Assembly: GCA_944389975.1 (NCBI GenBank)
Contig: CALXOH010000039.1
Location: forward strand, 1 to 42,752
DNA from: an uncultured Spirochaetaceae bacterium
GTDB lineage: Bacteria; Spirochaetota; Spirochaetia; Sphaerochaetales; Sphaerochaetaceae
DNA length: 42,752 bases
Direction of reading: 5' to 3'
Within the stretch, counting starts at the first letter, position 1, and every line of letters starts with the position of its first letter. The translations under genes and the position numbers were made by a program. Under the pieces are notes generated by a model. The model ran no database searches. It had not been told where the DNA came from and saw only the letters and a program-made list of their open reading frames with translations. Below, in pieces: positions 1,649 through 23,298 of this stretch.

Positions 1649-3859
1649 CTACCACTTTCTCCTGATGTTCACTTTAACTTTCTTTCGTATCAGATAGCAC
1701 TTGTGGATCTTCGGGCTGTTCTCATAGTCAACTCCGATCGTCTCCGGCGTGATATCCTTCACGTAATATTCGTCGAGTATCTCCTCATCCATTTTGAATT
1801 TCGTGAAGTTCGTGCTGAATATCATCAAGCCACTTTTGCTTAGAAGTCTCATCGCCCTGTGTATCAACTTCCTGTGGTCGCGCTGTACGTCGAATGTGTT
1901 CCGGCTCTTGCTGTTGCTGAAGGTCGGGGGATCGCAGAAGATCAGGTCGTACCTGTCGAACGAGTTTGCAAGGTACTCCATGACATCCGACTTGTAGAAG
2001 AAGTTCCTGATCGTAGTGGGGAAGGAGTTTATCTTCATGTTCTCGATCGCCCAGTCAAGGTATGTCGATGATGCGTCCACAGATACCGTGGAGATCGCAC
2101 CTCCCTTGATCGCGTTCAGCGTTGCAGTTGCAGTGTACGAGAATAGATTCAAGAACCTCTTTCCCCCGCTGATCTCCTGGATGTACTTCCTTATCGGCCT
2201 ATGATCGAGGAATATCCCGGTGTCGAGGTAGTCGGTGAAGTTCACGAGCACGTTCAGCCCGTTCTCGTGGATGATGTTGAAGTGGTTCTTCGATGCAAGC
2301 TTCTCGTACTGGCTCTTTCCCTTCATCGAACTTCTGACTTTAACGAATATGTTCTCGATGTCGATTCCCGTGGCCCTCTCGGTGGCTAAGACCAGCTCTT
2401 CAAGCCTTCTCTCCGTATCCTCTTGGGGAATCTCAGGAGGGCTCTTGTACTCGCTGAGGTTTATCCATTTTCCTTCGTACATGTCGATCGCTGCATTGTA
2501 CTCCTTCATGTCGGCATCGTAGATCCTGTAGGAAGTAACTCCCTCCTTCTCCATCTCCCCTTTGAGTTTCGAAAGGTTCTTCAAAAGCCTGTTGTAGACC
2601 ATCTCCGAACCCGGGGAAAGGGGTTTTGAAAGCCTTTCTTCCTTCTTTCTGAGGTTCTTTTCCCTCTGCTCCTCCCTCTCTTCGTCCGTGTATATCGTAT
2701 AGTGCGCCGCCTGGCATTCGATCGGGCCGTTGTAGAACGTATTGGTCCTTTCAGGTTTCATCGGGATGTACGAGAATAGTTCGCTCTCGGGAGCAAAGAG
2801 GGTTGCCTTCCAGCCTTTGAACGCGCTTTGGAGCTCATCCCCGATCTTCTCGTAGAAACTTCCGATGTCATCACTCTTCATCCTCACTCCGTATGGCGGA
2901 TCTGTGATTATGAAACCTCTTTCATCCCCGAAGTCACCTTCCTTGTACGAGAACGCATCCTTCTCGTCGATGGATATCAAATCGGAAACGCCCGCTTTGA
3001 TCGCACTTTCGCGCATTATCGAGACAGCCTTCCCCGAGATGTCGCTTGCATAGATCCTGATGTCCCTTCTCTCACGCGCTTCATCCCTTCTCTTCTCAGC
3101 TTCAGCTTTCACGCTCTCCCAAAGCTCTTTGTCGAACGAAGGAAGGTGCATGAATGCAAACTCCCTGTCTCCGACGAGTCCCGGTGCGGTATCTGATGCC
3201 ATGAGCGCAGCTTCGATCGCTATCGTACCCGTTCCCCCGAATGGATCGAGAAGTATTCCCGCTTTATCTTCGGTGATGCTCTTCTTCCAGTCGCTCCTCA
3301 TTACCAGCGATGCGGCAAGGTACTCCTTCATCGACACGTCGAGGTTGTTCTCGACCTTGTAGCCGCGCCTGCTCATCCCTTCGCCCGAGAAATCGATGTA
3401 CCAGATCGCAGTGTCCTTGTGGATGTGTACATGTACGGTGAAGTAGGGGTTTTCCGTATCCACGTCGGGCCTCTTTCCGTCGAACTTCTCCCTGATCCTG
3501 TCCACAATTCCGTCTTTGACTCTCAGGGAGATGAAGTGCGAGTTGTCTACGTACGGGCATGAGATCACAGTCTCTGTGACTTTGATCGTGCATTCCGGCG
3601 TGATGTAATCCTCCCATGGGATCCCCATCGTCGCTTCGTATAGTTCGTCGGCGCTTCTCAGCCCTTCGTCGTGGTAGGATGCAAGGAGAAGGCGTGATGA
3701 GACTCTTGAGTTCATCACGAAGTTGTAAGCTCCCCTCAGGTCGCTTTTGAACTCGACTCCCCCTCGTGTCACCCTTATCTCTTCAGCGTTTGCATAAAGT
3801 ATCACCTCGTCCTTTACGAGGTCTGCCTGGTTTGTCCCGGAACAAGCGAAGAAAATCAT
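1649..3859 (-). CDS. rlmL: Bifunctional 23S rRNA methyltransferase RlmKL
   Basis: A 736-residue protein matching the fused RlmL-RlmK enzyme (about 700 residues in E. coli), which makes m2G2445 and m7G2069 in 23S rRNA during 50S assembly. The N-terminal part has a THUMP-like RNA-binding segment (about residues 40-155), then the RlmL methyltransferase with DPFGGTGTIAIEAA (205-218) as SAM site and TDPPYGVR as the N-methyltransferase DPPY motif. The C-terminal RlmK half shows FLDHRPIRKYI, a SAM-binding stretch FLNLFSYTATATL, and IFCDPPTFSNS. It starts within the hslO stop (ATGA), so the two are translated as an operon, hslO first. Confidence 0.93.
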   Translation of the reverse strand: MIFFACSGTNQADLVKDEVILYANAEEIRVTRGGVEFKSDLRGAYNFVMNSRVSSRLLLASYHDEGLRSADELYEATMGIPWEDYITPECTIKVTETVISCPYVDNSHFISLRVKDGIVDRIREKFDGKRPDVDTENPYFTVHVHIHKDTAIWYIDFSGEGMSRRGYKVENNLDVSMKEYLAASLVMRSDWKKSITEDKAGILLDPFGGTGTIAIEAALMASDTAPGLVGDREFAFMHLPSFDKELWESVKAEAEKRRDEARERRDIRIYASDISGKAVSIMRESAIKAGVSDLISIDEKDAFSYKEGDFGDERGFIITDPPYGVRMKSDDIGSFYEKIGDELQSAFKGWKATLFAPESELFSYIPMKPERTNTFYNGPIECQAAHYTIYTDEEREEQREKNLRKKEERLSKPLSPGSEMVYNRLLKNLSKLKGEMEKEGVTSYRIYDADMKEYNAAIDMYEGKWINLSEYKSPPEIPQEDTERRLEELVLATERATGIDIENIFVKVRSSMKGKSQYEKLASKNHFNIIHENGLNVLVNFTDYLDTGIFLDHRPIRKYIQEISGGKRFLNLFSYTATATLNAIKGGAISTVSVDASSTYLDWAIENMKINSFPTTIRNFFYKSDVMEYLANSFDRYDLIFCDPPTFSNSKSRNTFDVQRDHRKLIHRAMRLLSKSGLMIFSTNFTKFKMDEEILDEYYVKDITPETIGVDYENSPKIHKCYLIRKKVKVNIRRKW

Positions 3860-4797
3860 TTCTCATCTCCTCCTTTTCCAAAGAGTTCTTCCACCTCTTT
3901 TTTTTCGAACGAATACACGCTGCCGCAGTTGAGGCATTCCAAATCAAGCGGGAACTTTCCTTCCATTATCCCGTTCTTCTCACTCTCAGGCAGGGATGAA
4001 AGGTGTATCCTGAAGCGCTCCTTCGAGCATGGGCATGAGAAAGAGAGTGGCTGTGATGATAGATGTAGTGGTGAAAATTCCTCGAACTCGCTTTCGACGT
4101 ACGATCTGATGTCCACGCCCTCTGAAAGAAGCTTTCCGAGCCCTTTGAGTTTCGATGCTTTCTCTTCAAGCTTTGCTACTACACTTTCAGGACACTTTGG
4201 CATCAGCTGCAAAAATATTCCCCCGCCACCACTTACGTATCCCTTTTCATTGAGTTTCACCGAAATGTAGAAGAGGGTGGGCGTCTGTTCGCTTTCGCTG
4301 AAGTAAAGCGCAAGGTCCTTCGCTATGTTCCCGTATTGCATCATCACTGTTCCTGAAAATGGTGTTTTCGCACCTTCAAGCGTCTTTGTCACTGTCAGGA
4401 ATCCCGGGCCGAAGAGCATGTTCACCCCTTCATCCCCGTTTACGCATCCCGTTACTGGAATAGGGTTGTTCACCAAATACCCGCGTACGTATCCCGACGC
4501 ACCCGATTCGACCGACAGCCCTTTTATCGGTCCACCGCACTCGATGTCCAGTCTTATCCTGTCGTTCCCTTTGACCTGTGACGACAATAACGCTACCCCG
4601 ATGTATGCCTGGGAAAGTACGTATGTCTCCAGACTGCCAAGGTTATGGCTTTCCTTCATGCTGTTCAGGCTCTTCGTCAGGCTCAGTGCGTACATCCTGA
4701 CGCTTTTGTCGCCAAAGAGGTAAATCTCCCTTCCATCCGCCGGAAGAGAGGCGAGGTGTGCTCTCACTTCCTCGTCTTGTATTTCCTTTGTAATCAT
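3856..4797 (-). CDS. hslO: Hsp33 redox-regulated holdase chaperone
   Basis: A 313-residue protein of the Hsp33 family, a cytoplasmic holdase switched on by oxidative unfolding. The N-terminal substrate-binding domain has the expected pattern (GGPIKGLSVE, GYVRGYL). The C-terminal zinc switch has four cysteines as CxC (C255, C257) and CxxC (C288, C291), the family arrangement, so redox control should work. The ATG at 4795-4797 has no Shine-Dalgarno; a TTGCCC-N18-TACACT promoter lies just upstream and would begin transcription one base before the ATG. First gene of the hslO-rlmL operon, divergent from the sensor kinase gene. Confidence 0.94.
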   Translation of the reverse strand: MITKEIQDEEVRAHLASLPADGREIYLFGDKSVRMYALSLTKSLNSMKESHNLGSLETYVLSQAYIGVALLSSQVKGNDRIRLDIECGGPIKGLSVESGASGYVRGYLVNNPIPVTGCVNGDEGVNMLFGPGFLTVTKTLEGAKTPFSGTVMMQYGNIAKDLALYFSESEQTPTLFYISVKLNEKGYVSGGGGIFLQLMPKCPESVVAKLEEKASKLKGLGKLLSEGVDIRSYVESEFEEFSPLHLSSQPLSFSCPCSKERFRIHLSSLPESEKNGIMEGKFPLDLECLNCGSVYSFEKKEVEELFGKGGDEK

Positions 4798-4804
4798 AAC
4801 GGAA

Positions 4805-4834
4805 AGTGTACATTTGAACCCCGTTCCAGGGCAA
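4805..4834 (-). promoter_or_regulatory. hslO promoter, near-leaderless
   Basis: Read on the minus strand: -35 TTGCCC (4829-4834), 18-bp spacer, -10 TACACT (4805-4810). Predicted start at 4798, one base before the hslO ATG. Confidence 0.55.
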
Positions 4835-4863
4835 GTGACCGGAATGTGATAAGGTGTTACACT
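4835..4863 (+). promoter_or_regulatory. Sensor-kinase promoter, leaderless
   Basis: Extended -10 TGT-TACACT (4855-4863; hexamer 4858-4863) with a poor -35 GTGACC (4835-4840, spacer 17). Predicted start is 4870, the A of the ATG. It abuts and mirrors the hslO promoter; both read TACACTTTCC toward their gene. Confidence 0.5.
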
Positions 4864-4869
4864 TTCCTT

Positions 4870-6162
4870 ATGGCCCGGGCAAAGACAAGGAAGGAAAAGC
4901 TCAAGAGATTATTCAAGGAAAAGGCACTCAGAACCCGCATTCTGATCGTAATTGTACTCTTCCTCCTTATCGCTGTGATCCTATTCATAACGATCAATCT
5001 CCTTTCGATAAAGCGGCTTGAGATGGAGAACAACGTCGAGAGAGCGTTCAATGACTTGATGCTTGCCATGGAGGACTCCTCGATACCCGTTTCGATAGTG
5101 ATGGCCGAGGACGGTGTGAACGGATTTGCGATCTACTCTAGCTACGGCAACCTTTTATATAGCGAAGGGGATGTGTACCAGCGCCTTCCTTTGGTCGATT
5201 TCGAGTGGGGCGAGAGGAACGCAAGTACCAATTCGATTACGAACTTCGACAGCAGTACGAATACGATGGAGTACATAAGGTTCTCCCGGAAAGCTGTTGT
5301 TCCTACAACCCAGAGCCTATTGGTCTCCGAAGAGCTCGGCCTCGTCGACTTTCCGAATATCATCTACCTCTCGTATGATGCGTCAAACTACAGAAGGGAT
5401 ATAATCGCGATACAGATCGTGATGCTTCTTCTGCTCGCATCTTCGGTATTTTTCTTCTTTTACATCATCCACGTATACGATGAGAACGTCCTGTACAAGG
5501 AAGCGTTGGAAAAGCAGGAACGCCTTGTGAGCCTCGGGCAGGCTGCACGCACCCTCACGCACGAGATCAAAAACCCATTGAGTGCGATAACAATCCAGGT
5601 TGCGATACTCAAAAAGACCCTTCCCGAAGATGTCTCCGGGGACCTCGATGTGATCGCCGGCGAAACAAAGCGCCTCATAACACTCGCCGACAGGGTATCT
5701 GAATTTCTTCATAACCCGGTTGGGAACCCCGAGAGAATAAGTCTCGAGGAATCGATCCGTTCACTTTTCCCCCTCTTCAAAGGAAAAGGGGATATCAAGA
5801 TGAAGGATTACAGCGGGGAGTACTTTGTTTTCTTCGACAAGGAAAGGTTCCGATCAGTCTTTGAAAACATCATCAAAAACGCATTTGAGTCGATGGACGG
5901 CATGAGCGAGCACTTGGTGGAAATCGCGTTCAGCCCGGGAAGAAAAGGCATAGTCCGCATTTTCATCCGCGACAGGGGATGCGGGATAAAGGAAGATGAG
6001 AAAGCGAAGATCTTCGATCCTTTTTACACTACGAAGATACACGGATCGGGCATCGGACTAGCGATCTCAAAGCAGTTCATAGAGGCATCCGGGGGGCAGA
6101 TTGCACTCCGAAAGCGTGATGGCGGGGGTACTGAAGTCGAGGTGGATTTACCCCTGGCGTGA
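4870..6162 (+). CDS. NtrB-like membrane sensor histidine kinase
   Basis: A 430-residue membrane kinase. TM1 is about residues 23-46, an extracytoplasmic sensor region about 47-175 without a recognised domain, and TM2 about 178-202. The HisKA domain has TLTHEIKNPLSAI with phospho-acceptor H231. The ATPase domain has the N box (N333-N337), DRGCGI (368-373), FDPFYTT and GSGIGLA (392-398), so it should be active. The form is that of NtrB/AtoS/ZraS kinases that pair with sigma-54 activators. Its probable partner is the NtrC-type gene about 900 bp downstream; relic DNA lies between them. The frame extends upstream to 4645, but the start at 4870 fits the basic pre-TM segment and the -10 element. The signal is unknown. 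Confidence 0.88.
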   Translation: MARAKTRKEKLKRLFKEKALRTRILIVIVLFLLIAVILFITINLLSIKRLEMENNVERAFNDLMLAMEDSSIPVSIVMAEDGVNGFAIYSSYGNLLYSEGDVYQRLPLVDFEWGERNASTNSITNFDSSTNTMEYIRFSRKAVVPTTQSLLVSEELGLVDFPNIIYLSYDASNYRRDIIAIQIVMLLLLASSVFFFFYIIHVYDENVLYKEALEKQERLVSLGQAARTLTHEIKNPLSAITIQVAILKKTLPEDVSGDLDVIAGETKRLITLADRVSEFLHNPVGNPERISLEESIRSLFPLFKGKGDIKMKDYSGEYFVFFDKERFRSVFENIIKNAFESMDGMSEHLVEIAFSPGRKGIVRIFIRDRGCGIKEDEKAKIFDPFYTTKIHGSGIGLAISKQFIEASGGQIALRKRDGGGTEVEVDLPLA

Positions 6163-15698: not shown

Positions 15699-16268
15699 AT
15701 GAGAAAGAAGATAATAGTTTGTTTGTTGCTTTTGGCTCTTGTCCCATCATTTGTGATGGCGGATTTCATGTCGCTAGGTCTCAATGTCGGCTATAGCAAG
15801 AGCTATACGGATATACACGAACCGGCGAACATCGAGTTCTGGGACTGGAGGAACATATCGTACGGACCAGAGTTGAGGATCAACATATTCTTCCTGCGCC
15901 TTTCACTTGCCTCTCACATCGCACCTTTGGAGGAAGGCGTACTCTTTGACAACACTGCTGCAGTCGACCTCTACTTCAAATTCCTCGACTCGATCAGGCT
16001 CAGCCTCGGCGTAGGCGTATCGATGCCCATCTATCAAAAGGGTGGGGATTGGCACATGGGGTACGGGGATGTCGCGTTCACCGACTTCAAAGGGCTGATG
16101 GAGAGTTCGCACCTCACATACCGCGTGGGGCTGGGGTATATATTCGACAACTTCGAAATAGACTTGCAATACTCGCTTCCCGCAAGGGGTTCCTTCAAGG
16201 AAGGGGACTACGTTCCTTCGTGGGAGGACAGCACCCTCTCCCTAGGACTGTCCGTGATACTTTTCTAA
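15699..16268 (+). CDS. Putative outer-membrane beta-barrel protein
   Basis: A 189-residue protein with a signal peptide (MRKKIIVCLLLLALVPSFVMA, cut expected after residue 21). The mature part alternates polar and hydrophobic residues in short strands (LRINIFFLRLSLASHI, LTYRVGLGYIF, FEIDLQYSL) and ends SLGLSVILF, with the terminal aromatic residue recognised by the Bam machinery. This suggests a small 8- to 10-strand outer-membrane barrel. I do not recognise a named family; it may be a lineage-specific spirochaete protein. AGGAGG lies just before the ATG. The gene starts 12 bases after nadE and is followed 7 bases later by a membrane-anchored protein. Confidence 0.7.
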   Translation: MRKKIIVCLLLLALVPSFVMADFMSLGLNVGYSKSYTDIHEPANIEFWDWRNISYGPELRINIFFLRLSLASHIAPLEEGVLFDNTAAVDLYFKFLDSIRLSLGVGVSMPIYQKGGDWHMGYGDVAFTDFKGLMESSHLTYRVGLGYIFDNFEIDLQYSLPARGSFKEGDYVPSWEDSTLSLGLSVILF

Positions 16269-16275
16269 AGGCAGT

Positions 16276-16701
16276 ATGATGGAATTTTTGAAGGTCTTCC
16301 TTTCGGCATTCGTGCTGCTGGTAATAACCACACTGGTCTTTTTCGCAATCTATTTCCTCTTTCCCGACTTCTCGGAAAACGCGTTCGGGATATCTGCATA
16401 TAGCGAAGGGTTCGTGCTTGGATCAAACGGAGTATCCGAAAATGGAGATAGTTCCGGCGACTTCGATTCGTTTCTGAACGGAGAGAGGGGAAAGGCCGTT
16501 ATGAGTGCTTTGGAAAGCGAGGGCGTGGACACGTCCGGTATCGACATCAATGAGCTTGAAGCCAAGGCTTCAGAGTACCTTGGGAAAACCGGAGAGAGCC
16601 TGGATGAGATTTTCTCAAATGCGAACATCGCACGAATGATCACGGGAAAGATCCCGGATGAAGTCTCGTCATTTCTTTCCGAGCTGGGGCTTGCTTTATG
16701 A
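16276..16701 (+). CDS. Small single-pass membrane-anchored protein, unknown function
   Basis: A 141-residue protein with one long hydrophobic segment (about residues 6-29, LKVFLSAFVLLVITTLVFF onward) and an acidic, Ser/Gly-rich remainder, probably exported with an uncleaved anchor. The C-terminal third is helical and amphipathic (DINELEAKASEYLGKTG, ARMITGKIPDEVSSFLSEL). No family is recognised. Two ATGs in a row (16276, 16279) make the start ambiguous by one codon. It overlaps the next gene by four bases (ATGA), so it belongs to the same operon. Confidence 0.6.
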   Translation: MMEFLKVFLSAFVLLVITTLVFFAIYFLFPDFSENAFGISAYSEGFVLGSNGVSENGDSSGDFDSFLNGERGKAVMSALESEGVDTSGIDINELEAKASEYLGKTGESLDEIFSNANIARMITGKIPDEVSSFLSELGLAL

Positions 16702-17453
16702 AAGTGACTTTCCTCGGCACAGGCACCAGCCACGGCGTGCCCGTACTGGGTTGCTCGTGCCCCGTTTGCAGAAGCAGCGATGAGAGGGACAAGCGCTACC
16801 GCTCTTCAGTCTGGATCGAGAAGGACTCTACGAGCATCGTCATAGACACCGGGTATGAGTTCAGGCTTTCAGGGATCCGCGCTGGTATAGGTAAACTCGA
16901 TGCGGTCTTATATACGCACGCACACTCTGACCACATAATGGGCTTTGACGACTTGAGGGTCTTCACCCTTGAGAAAAAGCTTCCGGTGTATGCAAGCGAA
17001 AAGACTCTGGATGATATCAAGACGAAGTTCCCGTACGCTTTTATCAAGGATTTCTTCCCGGGAATTCCGATGTGCACAGGCAATGTAGTGAGAGGGTATG
17101 AGCCGTTTTGTGTAAACGGCATCGAGATATTGCCCATTCCGCTCAAGCACGGGCTGATGGAAGTGTACGGCTACAGGATCGGGTCGTTTGCGTATCTTAC
17201 GGATGTTTCGTACATCGAAGAGAAAGCGTATGGTTTCCTACGCGGTCTGGATGTGCTTGTAATAGGCGCGCTGAGGGAGAAAAGCCATCCGACACACCTT
17301 TCATTCGGGGAGGCGGTGGAGGCAATCAGGCGGATCAAACCGGGAAAAGCGTACTTTACGCATATAAATCATGAGACGAGCTACGTTGATATAAACGCCA
17401 AATACATGCCTGTCGCGGAGAGTGCATACGACGGCATGGTTCTGGAGGTATGA
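16698..17453 (+). CDS. MBL-fold metallohydrolase (PhnP-like phosphodiesterase group)
   Basis: A 251-residue metallo-beta-lactamase-fold hydrolase. It begins MKVTFLGTGTSHGVP, then CSCPVCRSS supplies cysteines like the structural zinc site of PhnP, and THAHSDHIMGFDDL is the metal-binding HxHxDH motif. Further His ligands follow in IPLKHGLMEVYGYRIG, LSFGEA and YFTHINHE. PhnP cleaves cyclic phosphodiesters; relatives process nucleotides or RNA, so the substrate is open. It overlaps the upstream gene (ATGA) and its stop overlaps the polA start, so expression is coupled to polA. Confidence 0.85.
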   Translation: MKVTFLGTGTSHGVPVLGCSCPVCRSSDERDKRYRSSVWIEKDSTSIVIDTGYEFRLSGIRAGIGKLDAVLYTHAHSDHIMGFDDLRVFTLEKKLPVYASEKTLDDIKTKFPYAFIKDFFPGIPMCTGNVVRGYEPFCVNGIEILPIPLKHGLMEVYGYRIGSFAYLTDVSYIEEKAYGFLRGLDVLVIGALREKSHPTHLSFGEAVEAIRRIKPGKAYFTHINHETSYVDINAKYMPVAESAYDGMVLEV

Positions 17454-20305
17454 TGGAAGATTTGTTTTCGTCCTTGGATCTGGATCAGGAGAAGCTTGGA
17501 AAGGAAAAAGAGAAAAAGGACGAACGCGTCCTCTTGAAGATGAAGAAAGAGCAGGAAGAGAGGACAAGGGAAGAGGAGGAAGCTTCCTCACCCGTTTTTT
17601 CAAAGACGCTTTACATCATCGACGGCTATTCAATCATATACAGATCGTATTTCGCGTTCCTCTCACACCCCCTCAGCGATAGGAATGGCAACAACATCAG
17701 TTCGTACGTCGGTTTTTTCAATACCCTTTTGATGCTTTTGTCAAAGTACAAGATGGATTACATCGCTGTCACGATGGATGAGAAGGAACCTACGTTCAGG
17801 CATCTGATGTACCCCGGGTACAAAGCTACGAGGGACAAGGCTCCGGAGGATTTGCACGCACAGGTTCCGATGATAACCGAAACGCTCTCGAAGATGGGTA
17901 TCAAAGTGCTCTCCAAGCCCGGCTTCGAAGCTGACGACGTGATGGCAAGCCTCACGAAGAAAGCTGAAAGTGCAGGGGTGCTCTCCGTGATGGTCACTGG
18001 AGACAAGGATCTCATGCAGCTTGTATCAAAGTCAGTGAAGGCGTTGAGGCCCGGAAAAGGCGCAGGGGAATACAACTTCTACGGAAGGGATGAAGTGAAA
18101 GGGGAGTACGGGGTGTACCCGGAGCAGATAGTGGATTACCTGTCACTCCTCGGAGACAGCGCCGACAACGTTCCCGGAGTCAAGGGGATAGGTGGAAAGG
18201 GGGCGGTGAAACTTCTCTCCGAGTATGTCTCTCTGGAAGGGATTTACAGGAACATCGCGCACATCCCGGGTGCGACGGGCAAAAAGCTCGAGGAAGGAAA
18301 GGATGATGCGTTCTTATCGAAAAAACTCATCGAACTGTCGTTTGATGCGCTTGATGAAGACTTCGACATCGAAGAGCTAAGCATCGCTGAAGTCGACAAG
18401 GAGAAAGCGAGGAAGGATTTTGAGGATCATCAGGCGAGGATGCTTTTAAGGCGGCTCGGTGCGGATTATCAGGAAGAGGATATGAAGGCAAAGCCATCGC
18501 TCTTGAAAAAAGACGAGGAGTACCTTCTCGGGGAAGGGAAGTACGAGGCGGTGCTTACTCCGGACAGGCTCCGCATCCTCTTTGAAGAGGCTCTCAAGAA
18601 GAACTCGGGGCTCATTGCATTCGACACTGAAACAACAGGCTTGAAAGAGGATGCATTGTTCCTTGGTTTCTCGTTCTCATTCGAGCCCAAGAAAGGATAT
18701 TACGTTCCGTTTGTGGCGGGCAGGAAGGAATGCACAGACAAAAAGAGCATGCTTTCGGTCGTCCACGACTACATCACTTCCGGACGCCTTCGTGTTGTCG
18801 GGCAGAACTTGAAGTTCGATCTGAAAGTGCTATGGAAGGAAGGGGAGGACATACCGAATATAGCGTTCGATACAATGATCGCGTCCTGGATGCTCGATTC
18901 AAACAGCCAGCGATTCAGCCTCGACGAACTTGCCTCCAAATTCCTCGGCTACAAGACCATGCGCTTTGAGGACGTGGTTCCCGAAGGGGAGGACTTCAGC
19001 AGCGTCTCAATGGAAGACGCTGTCAGGTATTCAGGAGAGGACAGCGACCTTGCCTTAAGGCTTTACAAGGTGCTTTCACGCCTTCTGAAGGAAAACCAGC
19101 TTGTTGATTTGTACCGCACTATGGAACTTCCACTCGTGAGGGTGCTTGCAAGGATGGAAAGGCATGGGATATTGCTCTCGGAGGAGAGGATGGAGAGACT
19201 CGAAAGGAGCGAACGGGAGCGTATAGCAAACCTTGTCGAGTCGATATATCGGGAGGCGGGGCACGAATTCAACATCAATTCCACCAAGCAGCTTGCCCAG
19301 GTGCTCTTTGAAGAGATGAGGCTCGAGACTGGAAAGAAGACGCAGCGAGGCTATTCAACCGATGTATCCACACTCGAGAGCCTGAGGAAGAAGGGTGGAA
19401 AGATAATAGATGATCTGCTCCAGTACAGGCAGAGTTCGAAATTGAAGAGCACATACATCGATGTGCTTCCGACACTCCGCGATGAAAACGGCAGGGTGCA
19501 CACGAGTTTCAACCAGACGGGGACTGCTACCGGACGCCTTTCAAGCAGCGACCCGAATCTTCAGAACATACCCGTCCGGACCGAGGAAGGGCGTATGATC
19601 AGGGATGCGTTCGTCGCATCAGACGGCCACATCTTCATCAGTGCAGACTATTCGCAGGTTGAGTTGGTGATGCTTGCGAACATGAGCGGGGATCCGGGGC
19701 TTTCAAGCGCATTCAAAAGCGGAGAGGACGTGCACAAGTACACGGCAAGCCTTCTGTTCCAGAAGGATATAGGGGAGATTTCTCCAGATGAGCGTAGGAT
19801 TGCAAAGACCATAAACTTCGGGATCATGTACGGGATGTCGGCATTCAGGCTCTCAAATGATCTCGGGATATCCCGCTCGGAGGCATCAAGTTTTATAGAG
19901 AAGTATTTCGATCGCTATAGCAAGGTCAGGGATTTTGTACACGAGACTGTCGGGAAGGCGGAGCACGACGGATATGTGACGACCCTTTTCGGGCATAGGC
20001 GCGAAGTTCTCGGGATCAACAGCCGGAACAAAGTCGAGAAGAGCGCTGCAGAGCGCGTTGCAGTCAATACAGTCATCCAAGGAAGCGCAAGCGAGGTGAT
20101 GAAAAGAGCCATGCTCGCTCTTCCCGAGGATCTCTTGTCGATGCTTTTGCTCCAAGTCCACGATGAATTGATATTCGAGTGCCCGATAAACATAGTAGAA
20201 GAAACTTCAATGAAGATCAAAAACGTGATGGAGAACACGACAAAGCTCGATGTCCCTGTGAAAGCGAGCGTTGAGAATTCGTACTCCTGGGGAGGCATGC
20301 ACTGA
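17450..20305 (+). CDS. polA: DNA polymerase I with a charged N-terminal extension
   Basis: A 951-residue family A polymerase for Okazaki fragment processing and repair. Residues 1-50 are an extra, highly charged, probably coiled segment absent from E. coli PolA. The 5'-3' exonuclease domain begins near residue 53 (TLYIIDGYSIIYRSY). The 3'-5' exonuclease looks active: FDTETTGL (ExoI), NLKFDLKVL (ExoII) and YSGED (ExoIII, YxxxD) keep all four acidic ligands. The polymerase domain has motif A DYSQVELVMLANMSGD, motif B RRIAKTINFGIMYG and motif C QVHDELIFE. Start at 17450 or 17453, with GGAGG at 17444-17448 just upstream. The stop overlaps the coaE start by one base. Confidence 0.96.
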   Translation: MMEDLFSSLDLDQEKLGKEKEKKDERVLLKMKKEQEERTREEEEASSPVFSKTLYIIDGYSIIYRSYFAFLSHPLSDRNGNNISSYVGFFNTLLMLLSKYKMDYIAVTMDEKEPTFRHLMYPGYKATRDKAPEDLHAQVPMITETLSKMGIKVLSKPGFEADDVMASLTKKAESAGVLSVMVTGDKDLMQLVSKSVKALRPGKGAGEYNFYGRDEVKGEYGVYPEQIVDYLSLLGDSADNVPGVKGIGGKGAVKLLSEYVSLEGIYRNIAHIPGATGKKLEEGKDDAFLSKKLIELSFDALDEDFDIEELSIAEVDKEKARKDFEDHQARMLLRRLGADYQEEDMKAKPSLLKKDEEYLLGEGKYEAVLTPDRLRILFEEALKKNSGLIAFDTETTGLKEDALFLGFSFSFEPKKGYYVPFVAGRKECTDKKSMLSVVHDYITSGRLRVVGQNLKFDLKVLWKEGEDIPNIAFDTMIASWMLDSNSQRFSLDELASKFLGYKTMRFEDVVPEGEDFSSVSMEDAVRYSGEDSDLALRLYKVLSRLLKENQLVDLYRTMELPLVRVLARMERHGILLSEERMERLERSERERIANLVESIYREAGHEFNINSTKQLAQVLFEEMRLETGKKTQRGYSTDVSTLESLRKKGGKIIDDLLQYRQSSKLKSTYIDVLPTLRDENGRVHTSFNQTGTATGRLSSSDPNLQNIPVRTEEGRMIRDAFVASDGHIFISADYSQVELVMLANMSGDPGLSSAFKSGEDVHKYTASLLFQKDIGEISPDERRIAKTINFGIMYGMSAFRLSNDLGISRSEASSFIEKYFDRYSKVRDFVHETVGKAEHDGYVTTLFGHRREVLGINSRNKVEKSAAERVAVNTVIQGSASEVMKRAMLALPEDLLSMLLLQVHDELIFECPINIVEETSMKIKNVMENTTKLDVPVKASVENSYSWGGMH

Positions 20306-20889
20306 TGGTTGTGGGTCTTACCGGTGTATCGTGCAGCGGGAAAAACGAAGTTGCACGCATTTTCTCTTCCCTCGGGTATCTCGTGATCGATGAGGACAAG
20401 CTGGGGCACGATGCCCTTGTAGTCAGAAAAAAAGAGATAGTCGATGCATTCGGCACTTCGATCCTCTCTGAGGATGGAAGCGTGGATAGAAGGAAACTTT
20501 CATCTATTGTCTTTTCCTCCACGTCGATGCTTTCAAAGCTCGAGGGTATAAGCCATCCATATATGGTGAGTGAGACGAAGCGGATCATAGAATCGTTTGA
20601 CGGGGATGTTGTTATCAACGCAGCGATACTCGAGCACCTGGGTCTCGATGCCATCTCCGATGTGTTTGTCTTCGTATCCGCCCCTGTAGATATCCTATTG
20701 GAGCGCGCAAAGAGAAGGAACGGGACTGGGCGTGAGATGTTTTTAAAGAGGTTGAAGGCGCAGGAAGAGATAGGAAAGAAGCTTGAAGCCTCCGGTAAAG
20801 CCATCTACAGGATAGATAACGACTCGACATTGGAAGAGCTTTGGAAAAAGACGCGCTCGGTTGTCGAAATGATCCGCGGGGGAAAATGA
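20305..20889 (+). CDS. coaE: Dephospho-CoA kinase
   Basis: A 194-residue kinase for the last step of CoA synthesis, ATP-dependent phosphorylation of the ribose 3'-OH of dephospho-CoA. It shows MVVGLTGVSCSGKNEVA as P-loop, then VIDEDKLGHDAL (catalytic Asp region) and a typical CoA-domain helix pattern with RRNGTGREMFLKRL late in the protein. The P-loop has Asn14 where the Walker A consensus wants Ser/Thr; I recall the same in treponeme CoaE, so it is probably a lineage trait. Its ATG overlaps the polA stop (TGATG). Confidence 0.9.
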   Translation: MVVGLTGVSCSGKNEVARIFSSLGYLVIDEDKLGHDALVVRKKEIVDAFGTSILSEDGSVDRRKLSSIVFSSTSMLSKLEGISHPYMVSETKRIIESFDGDVVINAAILEHLGLDAISDVFVFVSAPVDILLERAKRRNGTGREMFLKRLKAQEEIGKKLEASGKAIYRIDNDSTLEELWKKTRSVVEMIRGGK

Positions 20890-20933: not shown

Positions 20934-20997
20934 CAATAAATAAGGAATTGAAGGCATTTTTTCTTTTTGCTTTCCGTTTCATCGATAGAGGTTGAAA

Positions 20998-23298
20998 ATG
21001 GGTAAACACTTAAGGTATGTGATTCTGGCATTTTCCGTAGTTCTTGCGATATTCCTGTTCGCTTTAATCTGGCAGGTTCGTCCTTTGGACGACGGCACCG
21101 GCCTTTCGGATGCCGAAAACCGTCAGAACCAAGGTATGAGTGCCGTATTCAGACCGGAGGGGTTGAGCGATGAGGAAAAAGCCGAAGTCGGAGCGTACTT
21201 GCTTTCCGACGAAGATTTCATCTCTTCCCTTTCCCAGGCGATTGCAGGAAAGCTTCCCGCTTCATCCGGTGATGATGTCGATGTCGATGCTCTCGTAAGC
21301 GGTGTGATTGACAGCGTCAAAGACGATCCTGCAGCGCTCTATGCACTCATAGAAGAGAGCGTGGAGAGCGATATAGACGAGAAGATAAGCGCAAAGGAAG
21401 ATGAGATTGCAGCCCTCGTTCCAGTCGTGGAAAACAACGTTGCAGAGAAGCTTTCTGCATATGTCGATTCCCAGACGCCTTCGTTTGTCGATCAGGTTGC
21501 AGCAAAGGTCCTTGAGAGGGAGGATGCGTTCGTTTCCTCAGTTACAGAGCGCGTGATCCAGTCCATTGATCTCTCAACGAACGTCAGTGACGAGAGCGTA
21601 AGCGCGATTGAGAAGAGTGTTACGGAAAACGTAATAAAATATGCACTCAGCGAATGGCCTTACATCAGAAGCGAGATTGAAAAGGCTGTAAAAGCTGAAG
21701 CTGAAGGACTTGAAGATAGCGTCACCCGCGATATCCTTTCGAGGGAAGATGCATTCGTGGACGAGGTTGCCGCCAAAGTACTCGAGAGGGAAGACACATT
21801 CGTAGCGGAAGTTGCATCCAGAGTTCTTGCAGAGAAGGATTCGTTCATCAAGGAAGTTGCAGACGAAGTACTCTCAGGCCGTGATGCATTCGTGGATGAG
21901 GTTGCCGCCAAAGTACTCGAGAGGGAAGACGCGTTCGTAGCGGAAGTTGCATCCAAGGTTCTTGAGAGAGAGGATGCATTCGTTTCCGAAGTCACATCGA
22001 GAGTGCTCGCGCACGAACCTGAGTTTGTTGACAGCGTAACGGATAACGTCCTTGCATACCGCAGCGAGTTCGTAAGGGAAGTTGCAGAGCTTGTCTCTGA
22101 AAATACGGTAAGCGACCTTGAGAAGGTCGTCACAGAGAACGTGACAAGTTACGTGAACGCCGAATGGCCGTACATCAGAAGCCAGATCGAAGAGATGGTC
22201 AATGCACAGGGCGCGGCATTGGAAGAGAACGTTACAAATGCAGTTCTCTCCCACGAAGATGAGTTCGTCGCTGAAGTTGTATCGAAGGTTCTCGAAGGCA
22301 AGGATGAATTCGTTTCCGAAGTCACAGCAGGCGTATTGGAGAACGAGGATGAGTTCATACGTACCGTGATCGACAAGGTACTCTCGAACGAGCCGTATTT
22401 CATCGAACAGATTGCAAAGGTTCTTTTGGATCATGAATCAGAGCTTGTGGATCTCGTAGTAGCAAGAGTGATGGAAGGAAAGGATGCGTTCGTATCTGAA
22501 GTTGCCTCTGAAGTGATGATGAATGAACCTCAGTTCGTGGAGAAGGTGAAGAATCTCGTGCTCGAAGAGCGGGATGCGTTCATTACTGAAGTCTTGAACG
22601 AAGTGCTTGCACACGAAGATGAGTTCGTAACCCGCGTTGCCGAAAAGGTACTCGAAGGAAAAGATGAGTTTGTAACCCAGGTTGCAAACGAAGTGCTTAC
22701 GCATGAGGATGAATTCGTAGCCAGAGTTACGGAGAAGGTTCTCGAAGGTAAGGATGAGTTCGTCTCTGAAGTTACTTCCCAAGTTCTTTCCCACGAGCCT
22801 GAGTTCGTAGATAAAGTTGCATCGAAGGTTCTTGAAGGCAAAGATGAGTTCGTAGCGGAAGTTTCTTCTGAAGTTCTCTCCTCGATAAGCGATGACGTGG
22901 ATATGAAAGTCGCCGAGGCTGTCGATGCTTTGGTCGATGATGTTGCATCTCTTGTCTCCGAAAGCCTTTTGAAAGCTACATCGGGCGATGGAACGACCAC
23001 ATACGACCAGATCGTGTACAACACTGCATCGGATGTGATGGGAGCCCTTTCCGGAGAGGAAGGCAAGAAGTATCCAGGACTTGAGAGCTACGAGGAGAAC
23101 ATGTTCAAGGCTATCGAGAACATTGTGTATGAAGTTCTCGGCAGACTCGATTTCAGCACATACTCGGTCGACGTTCCTGAAAGCGTGATCGGAAATCCGA
23201 CGTTCTCCGATCCCGATCCTTCAGCTGACTATACTGAGAGAAGGAACGAGATCAGAAGGGCAGAGATAAACAGGATTCTCGATTCGATCCTCAATTGA
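20998..23298 (+). CDS. Membrane-anchored pentadecad-repeat (predicted coiled-coil rod) protein
   Basis: A 766-residue acidic protein with a basic start and an N-terminal signal anchor (residues about 7-26), so the rest should lie in the periplasm or outside. About 24 copies of a 15-residue unit, roughly [EKR]D-x-F-V-x-E-V-x-x-K-V-L-x-x, occur at residues 160-189, 250-369 and 420-629. Two longer spacers share ...VTENV...EWPYIRS-(E/Q)-IE.... A 15-residue period (15/4 = 3.75 residues per turn) fits right-handed coiled coils, as in the YadA stalk. A non-repeat C-terminus (about 640-766) includes GDGTTTYDQIVYN and PTFSDPDPSADY. No named family is recognised. Start at 20998 is set by AGAGG six bases upstream, not the TTG at 20992. 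Its end overlaps the converging radical SAM gene by 8 bases. Confidence 0.75.
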   Translation: MGKHLRYVILAFSVVLAIFLFALIWQVRPLDDGTGLSDAENRQNQGMSAVFRPEGLSDEEKAEVGAYLLSDEDFISSLSQAIAGKLPASSGDDVDVDALVSGVIDSVKDDPAALYALIEESVESDIDEKISAKEDEIAALVPVVENNVAEKLSAYVDSQTPSFVDQVAAKVLEREDAFVSSVTERVIQSIDLSTNVSDESVSAIEKSVTENVIKYALSEWPYIRSEIEKAVKAEAEGLEDSVTRDILSREDAFVDEVAAKVLEREDTFVAEVASRVLAEKDSFIKEVADEVLSGRDAFVDEVAAKVLEREDAFVAEVASKVLEREDAFVSEVTSRVLAHEPEFVDSVTDNVLAYRSEFVREVAELVSENTVSDLEKVVTENVTSYVNAEWPYIRSQIEEMVNAQGAALEENVTNAVLSHEDEFVAEVVSKVLEGKDEFVSEVTAGVLENEDEFIRTVIDKVLSNEPYFIEQIAKVLLDHESELVDLVVARVMEGKDAFVSEVASEVMMNEPQFVEKVKNLVLEERDAFITEVLNEVLAHEDEFVTRVAEKVLEGKDEFVTQVANEVLTHEDEFVARVTEKVLEGKDEFVSEVTSQVLSHEPEFVDKVASKVLEGKDEFVAEVSSEVLSSISDDVDMKVAEAVDALVDDVASLVSESLLKATSGDGTTTYDQIVYNTASDVMGALSGEEGKKYPGLESYEENMFKAIENIVYEVLGRLDFSTYSVDVPESVIGNPTFSDPDPSADYTERRNEIRRAEINRILDSILN
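21745..22104 (+). repeat. 45-bp coding tandem repeats, block 1 (8 units)
   Basis: Eight in-frame units of 45 bases (residues 250-369), the last one diverging. Within it, the segment from 21745 recurs at 21880 (135 bases on, three units) with only a few differences over about 78 bases, so this part duplicated recently. Confidence 0.85.
22255..22884 (+). repeat. 45-bp coding tandem repeats, block 2 (14 units)
   Basis: Fourteen uninterrupted in-frame units (residues 420-629). Position 1 is E/K/R, position 2 mostly D or P, 4-5 mostly FV, 8 and 12 mostly V, 13 mostly L. EG-KDEFV and H-EDEFV units alternate toward the end. Confidence 0.85.

Follow-up and report, generated by a model that had tools for sequence, protein, structure and literature searches.

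What is a membrane-anchored protein built largely from near-identical 15-residue units, and which of its parts would matter in the envelope of a spirochaete? The question is raised by a gene in the window, the whole 42,752-nucleotide stretch of DNA analysed here, which comes from an uncultured bacterium of the Sphaerochaetaceae. Members of this family are coccoid, non-spiral spirochaetes (PMC12236494, PMC7738495).

Gene and protein layout

17450-20305: polA, upstream of coaE (PF00476)
20305..20889, forward strand: coaE, syntenic upstream neighbour (PF01121, E 1.6e-27)
20998..23298, forward strand: whole gene, 766 residues, ATG start, AGAGG upstream of the ATG
21016..21078, forward strand: predicted transmembrane helix, residues 7-27 (YVILAFSVVLAIFLFALIWQV), from the sequence
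21076..21150, forward strand: conserved juxtamembrane motif, residues 27-51, VRP....L..AE.RQ....AV, from invariant columns in 16 orthologs
21151..21474, forward strand: acidic helical segment, residues 52-159, non-repetitive
21475..21564, forward strand: 15-mer block 1, 2 units, residues 160-189 (15-mer profile)
21565..21744, forward strand: spacer A, residues 190-249, duplicate of spacer B
21745..22104, forward strand: 15-mer block 2, 8 units, residues 250-369 (15-mer profile)
22105..22254, forward strand: spacer B, residues 370-419, in which residues 385-403 (YVNAEWPYIRSQIEEMVNA) are a relic of the 19-residue unit seen in relatives
22255..22884, forward strand: 15-mer block 3, 14 units, residues 420-629
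22885..23178, forward strand: helical segment, residues 630-727, Y..I.Y....D...AL.G......L..Y..N...AIE..V.EVL.RLD, partly conserved in the nearest orthologs
23179..23298, forward strand: conserved C-terminal tail, residues 728-766, NPTF...DY...RNEIRRAEINRILDSILN, one copy per genome

A TTG at 20992, two codons upstream of the ATG at 20998, is an alternative mechanical start; the ATG is favoured, as orthologs begin MGK. The protein is free of cysteine and carries a net charge of -108 over residues 31-766. Its basic N-terminus, MGKHLR, would place the start of the chain inside and the remainder in the periplasm.

The polA-coaE neighbourhood offers no functional hint. Two small reading frames lie further upstream on the forward strand. 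The first (15699-16268) encodes a 189-residue protein with a signal-peptide-like start and a beta-barrel-like alternating sequence, possibly an outer-membrane protein, for which Pfam and NCBIfam gave no match. The second (16276-16701), just upstream of the cluster, encodes an acidic single-anchor protein of 141 residues with no family match.

The earlier note on this DNA knew no named family of this kind, and nothing credible came from Pfam, NCBIfam, PHROGs or PDB sequence searches. The Pfam families EKR and NYD-SP28 scored above cut-off (E about 1e-8) but were rejected, since neither exceeds it within one single stretch and a reversed-sequence decoy scores equally. The reversed window sequence yields equally strong false Pfam matches, such as MtlR at 4.8e-8. 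DUF445 (PF04286), a helical segment, shows weak profile similarity to the repeat regions of the family, with E 1.3e-6 and 29.0 bits on the window protein (cut-off 33.8; decoys reach 33.5 bits elsewhere) and E 1.5e-11 and 45.3 bits on one ortholog, L037. This similarity can be an artefact of periodicity, because the reversed sequence also exceeds the cut-off in unrelated families. Apolipoprotein-like binding to a membrane surface was held unlikely from the large net negative charge.

The pentadecad repeats

An iterated 15-mer profile recovers the arrangement given in the earlier note: 24 units, grouped as blocks of 2, 8 and 14, that keep exact register without indels. Units score 19-35 bits, where shuffled sequences set a threshold of 7.6, the spacing within blocks is always exactly 15, and one further degenerate unit lies at residue 642. 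The consensus is [EK]-[DP]-[EA]-F-V-x-E-V-[AT]-x-[KE]-V-L-E-[GHNR]. The hydrophobic positions that had been proposed also hold: position 4 is F or L, positions 5 and 8 are V or I, and position 12 is V or L, each in 25/25 units, and position 13 is L, M or I in 23/25. Autocorrelation of the window protein has maxima at lags 15, 30, 45 and 60 (z 15-19). There is a slight super-period of 30 residues, with lag 30 at least equal to lag 15 and a 90-nucleotide period in the DNA. One dimension needs correction. The earlier note gave block 2 a length of about 30 nm at 1.5 angstrom per residue; a length of about 31 nm belongs to the 14-unit block, and the 8-unit block would measure about 18 nm.

The spacers appear to record an older state. 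The two duplicate one another (local alignment score 168, shuffle maximum 49), and the relic in spacer B scores 18.5 bits with a profile of the relatives' 19-mers (shuffle 99% maximum 7.3). Taken together, the duplication and the relic make it appear that the pentadecads grew inside an older 19-mer protein.

A family defined by its two ends

By sequence and gene order, the window protein is a member of an undescribed family that is defined by its two ends and its location after coaE: it carries the N-terminal anchor motif and the C-terminal tail motif, and its gene follows coaE. The N-terminal profile A1 was built from 16 orthologs and has 95 columns, of which V27, R28, P29, L36, A39, R42, Q43 and V50 are invariant. 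The membrane anchor suggested earlier is supported, as the predicted helix is conserved in A1 and is accompanied by a VRP...A..RQ motif. At the extreme C-terminus, orthologs have in common a tail of about 39 residues, P-x-F...[ED]Y...R...R..[AE]I...L.

Searches with the whole protein in 60 related genomes matched 21 of the 35 other congeneric genomes, with no match beyond the genus. Profile A1 reaches further, with matches in 68 of 395 Spirochaetia genomes, all of them Sphaerochaetaceae, and among the genomes searched the family is restricted to the Sphaerochaetaceae. Genome contigs gave no match to the whole protein and 12 loci with a single N-terminal protein. The gene lies directly after polA-coaE in almost all orthologs with a readable flank; such orthologs are present in most Candidatus Ornithospirochaeta genomes and in other genera of the family. 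Three small genomes of the window genus (G019, G020 and G026, 1.4-1.5 Mb) gave no A1 match, and their CoaE is very divergent or fragmentary. The gene may have been lost there or have diverged past detection, and it may thus be dispensable.

A profile of the tail finds it at the post-coaE locus in most carriers (E 1e-18 to 1e-4), with a single match per genome; in the whole window genome there is no match away from that locus. Trained without genus g29, the profile still detects the tail in g29 members (E 5e-9 to 0.015). In genera g26, g27, g30, g31, g35, g41 and g42 it matches weakly or not at all, so membership of these outermost proteins rests on synteny and layout. A role of the tail as a sorting tag common to several proteins was rejected, given the one match per genome.

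An exchangeable middle

Between these conserved ends the middle is wholly different from ortholog to ortholog. Lengths vary from 241 to 992 residues and the dominant lag may be 15, 19, 42, 34, 41 or 12. Pentadecads are confined to the window species and a single sister species; in about 55 other members, repeats of other kinds or Pro-rich linkers take their place. The main types are the following.

19-residue units: L096, L105, L107
19- plus 23-residue units: L037, L038
34-residue units: L047, L108
41-residue units: L049, L051, L111
Pro/Glu-rich stretches with a 12-residue period: L041, L050
Pro/Glu/Val-rich linkers: genera g26, g30, g35, g41

Two further members, L044 (ORF 3392-5374) and L045 (ORF 3517-5451), each contain two near-identical inserts of about 85 residues, apparently globular (YTYAGYTLVGTISTGSAVLEYP...) and flanked by Pro-rich stretches.

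Such a range of lengths and such different chemistry argue for a spacer role of the middle rather than a binding surface, in line with domain II of TolA and TonB (PMC12204202). Fixed ends with wholly replaced repeats in close relatives are good natural evidence that the presence of a spacer matters and its chemistry does not. The 15-, 19-, 34- and 41-residue helical repeats also form a natural series for studying the origin of such rods.

Shape of the repeat region

The 50 units of the window and sister species suggest a joint. All seven prolines lie at position 2, position 15 takes 12 of the 13 glycines and all 11 histidines, and 38 of the 59 aspartates occupy the joint positions 2 and 15, concentrated at 2. 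The 19-mers have a comparable pattern, with 24 of 25 prolines at one position, two residues past a nearly invariant Asn. Confinement of the joint residues [G/H/N]-x-[D/P/S] to positions 15 and 2 reads as a C-cap/N-cap pair, with a helix cap every 15 residues. The units probably fold rather than stay disordered, since their pattern is strong and position 8 is always V or I.

The earlier note had predicted a right-handed coiled-coil rod. The 15-residue helical unit on which it built survives the analysis, and the expected hydrophobicity peak at 3.75 residues per turn is present (power 34, large block). This peak is not independent support for a right-handed supercoil, because a repeat of 15 residues has no helix-like harmonic other than 15/4. 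A homo-oligomeric rod, 15/4 here and 19/5 in relatives, does draw on other observations. Unit lengths of 15, 19 and 23 are whole turns apart and, with the sums 30, 34, 38, 42 and 57, fit 4n+3 counting, as in a coiled coil with stutters; hydrophobicity has maxima at 3.75 and 3.80; and YadA reaches 19/5 locally (PMC4786415). Against it stand the cap residues and prolines at one joint per unit, in 15-mers and 19-mers alike. In a continuous 15/4 helix, moreover, the charged position 1 (Glu, Lys or Arg) would sit 2 degrees off the centre of the hydrophobic stripe, in the middle of the would-be core. AlphaFold2 models, all of low confidence, were obtained for the whole protein with one ortholog (pLDDT 39) and for an in-register alignment of seven 8-unit windows (pLDDT 51). 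In both, the helix of most units breaks at position 15 or beside it; with pTM about 0.2, the models are too poor to show shape. Nor does a rod fit the members whose units are 41 residues long or whose middle is Pro-rich, and the pentadecads are confined to two species. It is doubtful that the repeats form one straight, right-handed coiled coil. As what defines the protein, a continuous rod is not supported, and the oligomeric rod is disfavoured and rather unlikely.

Amphipathic helices of 12-14 residues with tight joints, and the slight 30-residue super-period, would also suit a scaffold rather than a spacer: an alpha-solenoid, or an array of up-down helices, with a ligand or protein bound along its face. 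The units are near-identical, in contrast to the alternating A and B helices of HEAT or TPR repeats, Pro-rich segments replace the middle in other genera, and Foldseek returned no match with the low-confidence model of pLDDT 51. A solenoid is considered unlikely.

The post-coaE locus and peptidoglycan

The place immediately downstream of coaE is taken, in other Spirochaetia, by the gene of an anchored protein with a SPOR domain, which binds peptidoglycan. Some nine candidates were found, and the four tested by Pfam were all confirmed (E 1e-10 to 1e-17). The SPOR domain (PF05036) is absent from the window protein and from the window genome, and it was not found in 77 of 81 Sphaerochaetaceae genomes; G137, G335, G197 and G341 (genus g29) have partial, weak SPOR matches at other loci (E 5e-5 to 4e-4). 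Nor did any of 31 Sphaerochaetaceae genomes, including those that keep peptidoglycan genes, yield an OmpA/Pal-type peptidoglycan-binding domain. Known peptidoglycan tethers thus seem to be missing.

Peptidoglycan itself may be missing as well. In the window genus, searches gave no MurC-F and, in 11 sampled genomes, no penicillin-binding protein (PBP) transpeptidase; MurG-type matches are weak, and the SEDS protein is divergent. The sole Mur ligase match in the window genome carries an HVAGSKGKGS motif, which we take to be FolC-like, so the match reads as FolC. Relatives that keep peptidoglycan genes mostly have 4-6 Mur ligase matches and one transpeptidase. From this gene content, the window organism probably makes no peptidoglycan, and peptidoglycan is an unlikely partner of the protein in this genus. 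The apparent loss of PBP transpeptidases and MurC-F covers G000 and the genomes of genus g1 as well as genera g28, g32, g34, g38, g39, g40 and g136; where these seem lost, a divergent FtsW/RodA-like protein is often kept. Loss of peptidoglycan in a diderm lineage, comprising Candidatus Ornithospirochaeta and several other Sphaerochaetaceae genera, is probable.

The window family could descend from the SPOR protein of the same locus after loss of the SPOR domain and act as an FtsN-like regulator associated with division or the wall. Position after coaE and the order of anchor, linker and C-terminal module are the same in the two, SPOR is nearly absent from the Sphaerochaetaceae, and the anchor profiles align (probability 69%, E 4.4e-5), including a Pro just past the membrane helix. 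The alignment does not prove descent, as it spans only a 32-column hydrophobic segment. No SPOR remnant was seen, and the gene is kept in a genus where neither PBP nor MurC-F could be detected. Such a regulator is a tentative reading, with the odds against it.

Proposed role

The account preferred here, to which we give an even chance, is an inner-membrane-anchored periplasmic spacer or tether that presents a docking tail; the periplasmic location, the docking and an outer-membrane partner are conjectural parts of it. (i) The conserved N-terminal anchor would hold the protein in the inner membrane. (ii) The long, acidic, mostly helical middle would set its reach. (iii) The 24 pentadecads of the window protein are probably short amphipathic helices, jointed every 15 residues. 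(iv) The tail of about 39 residues, ending in a putative amphipathic helix (Y...R...R..[AE]I...L), would dock on an envelope partner.

Of the periplasmic strut and surface stalk suggested by the earlier note, an envelope spacer is plausible and the stalk is unsupported. A long, repetitive, acidic protein of gut bacteria might bring an extracellular stalk or adhesin to mind; the anchor with its conserved juxtamembrane motif, and searches that gave neither an outer-membrane anchor nor an adhesin domain, make this very improbable.

A bolder version of the preferred spacer would make the protein the chief connection of the inner with the outer envelope in the Sphaerochaetaceae, a strut of tunable length that exchanges modules of 15, 19 or 23 residues differing by whole helical turns. 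Its setting is a family without OmpA/Pal-type tethers and almost without SPOR-type tethers, in which several genera apparently lack peptidoglycan. This extension is speculative and is judged improbable. Should the tail dock on the outer membrane, the protein would bear on how the envelope coheres in a diderm without peptidoglycan, SPOR or OmpA/Pal, a question that can be put to the test in cultured relatives, for example Sphaerochaeta. The family is of moderate interest: it is undescribed, confined to one lineage, and swaps its repeat modules in spirochaetes that seem to be wall-less.

Comparison with known systems

The 15- and 19-residue periodicities recall the stalks of YadA-type trimeric autotransporters. 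The window protein differs in lacking the YadA beta-barrel anchor and head (Pfam, NCBIfam), in its opposite membrane anchoring, in the Pro/Gly joint of each unit and in ending in a short helical tail. The SPOR protein (PF05036) that follows coaE in other spirochaetes is alike in genomic position, in its single anchor with an immediate Pro, and in a long linker leading to a C-terminal module. The Sphaerochaetaceae protein has no SPOR domain, and helical repeats take the place of the short Pro/Glu-rich linker.

TolA and TonB, force transducers that span the periplasm, provide a third comparison. The window protein lacks their SHLS motor motif, A1 has no conserved His in the helix, no motor genes lie beside the gene, and a tail of about 39 residues stands where TolA and TonB have a C-terminal domain of about 100 residues (no Pfam match). 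The overall design is alike: an N-terminal membrane helix, a long clade-variable middle and a conserved C-terminal contact module (PMC12204202). In TolA/TonB domain II, too, the middle switches between alpha-helical and proline-rich forms by clade (PMC12204202).
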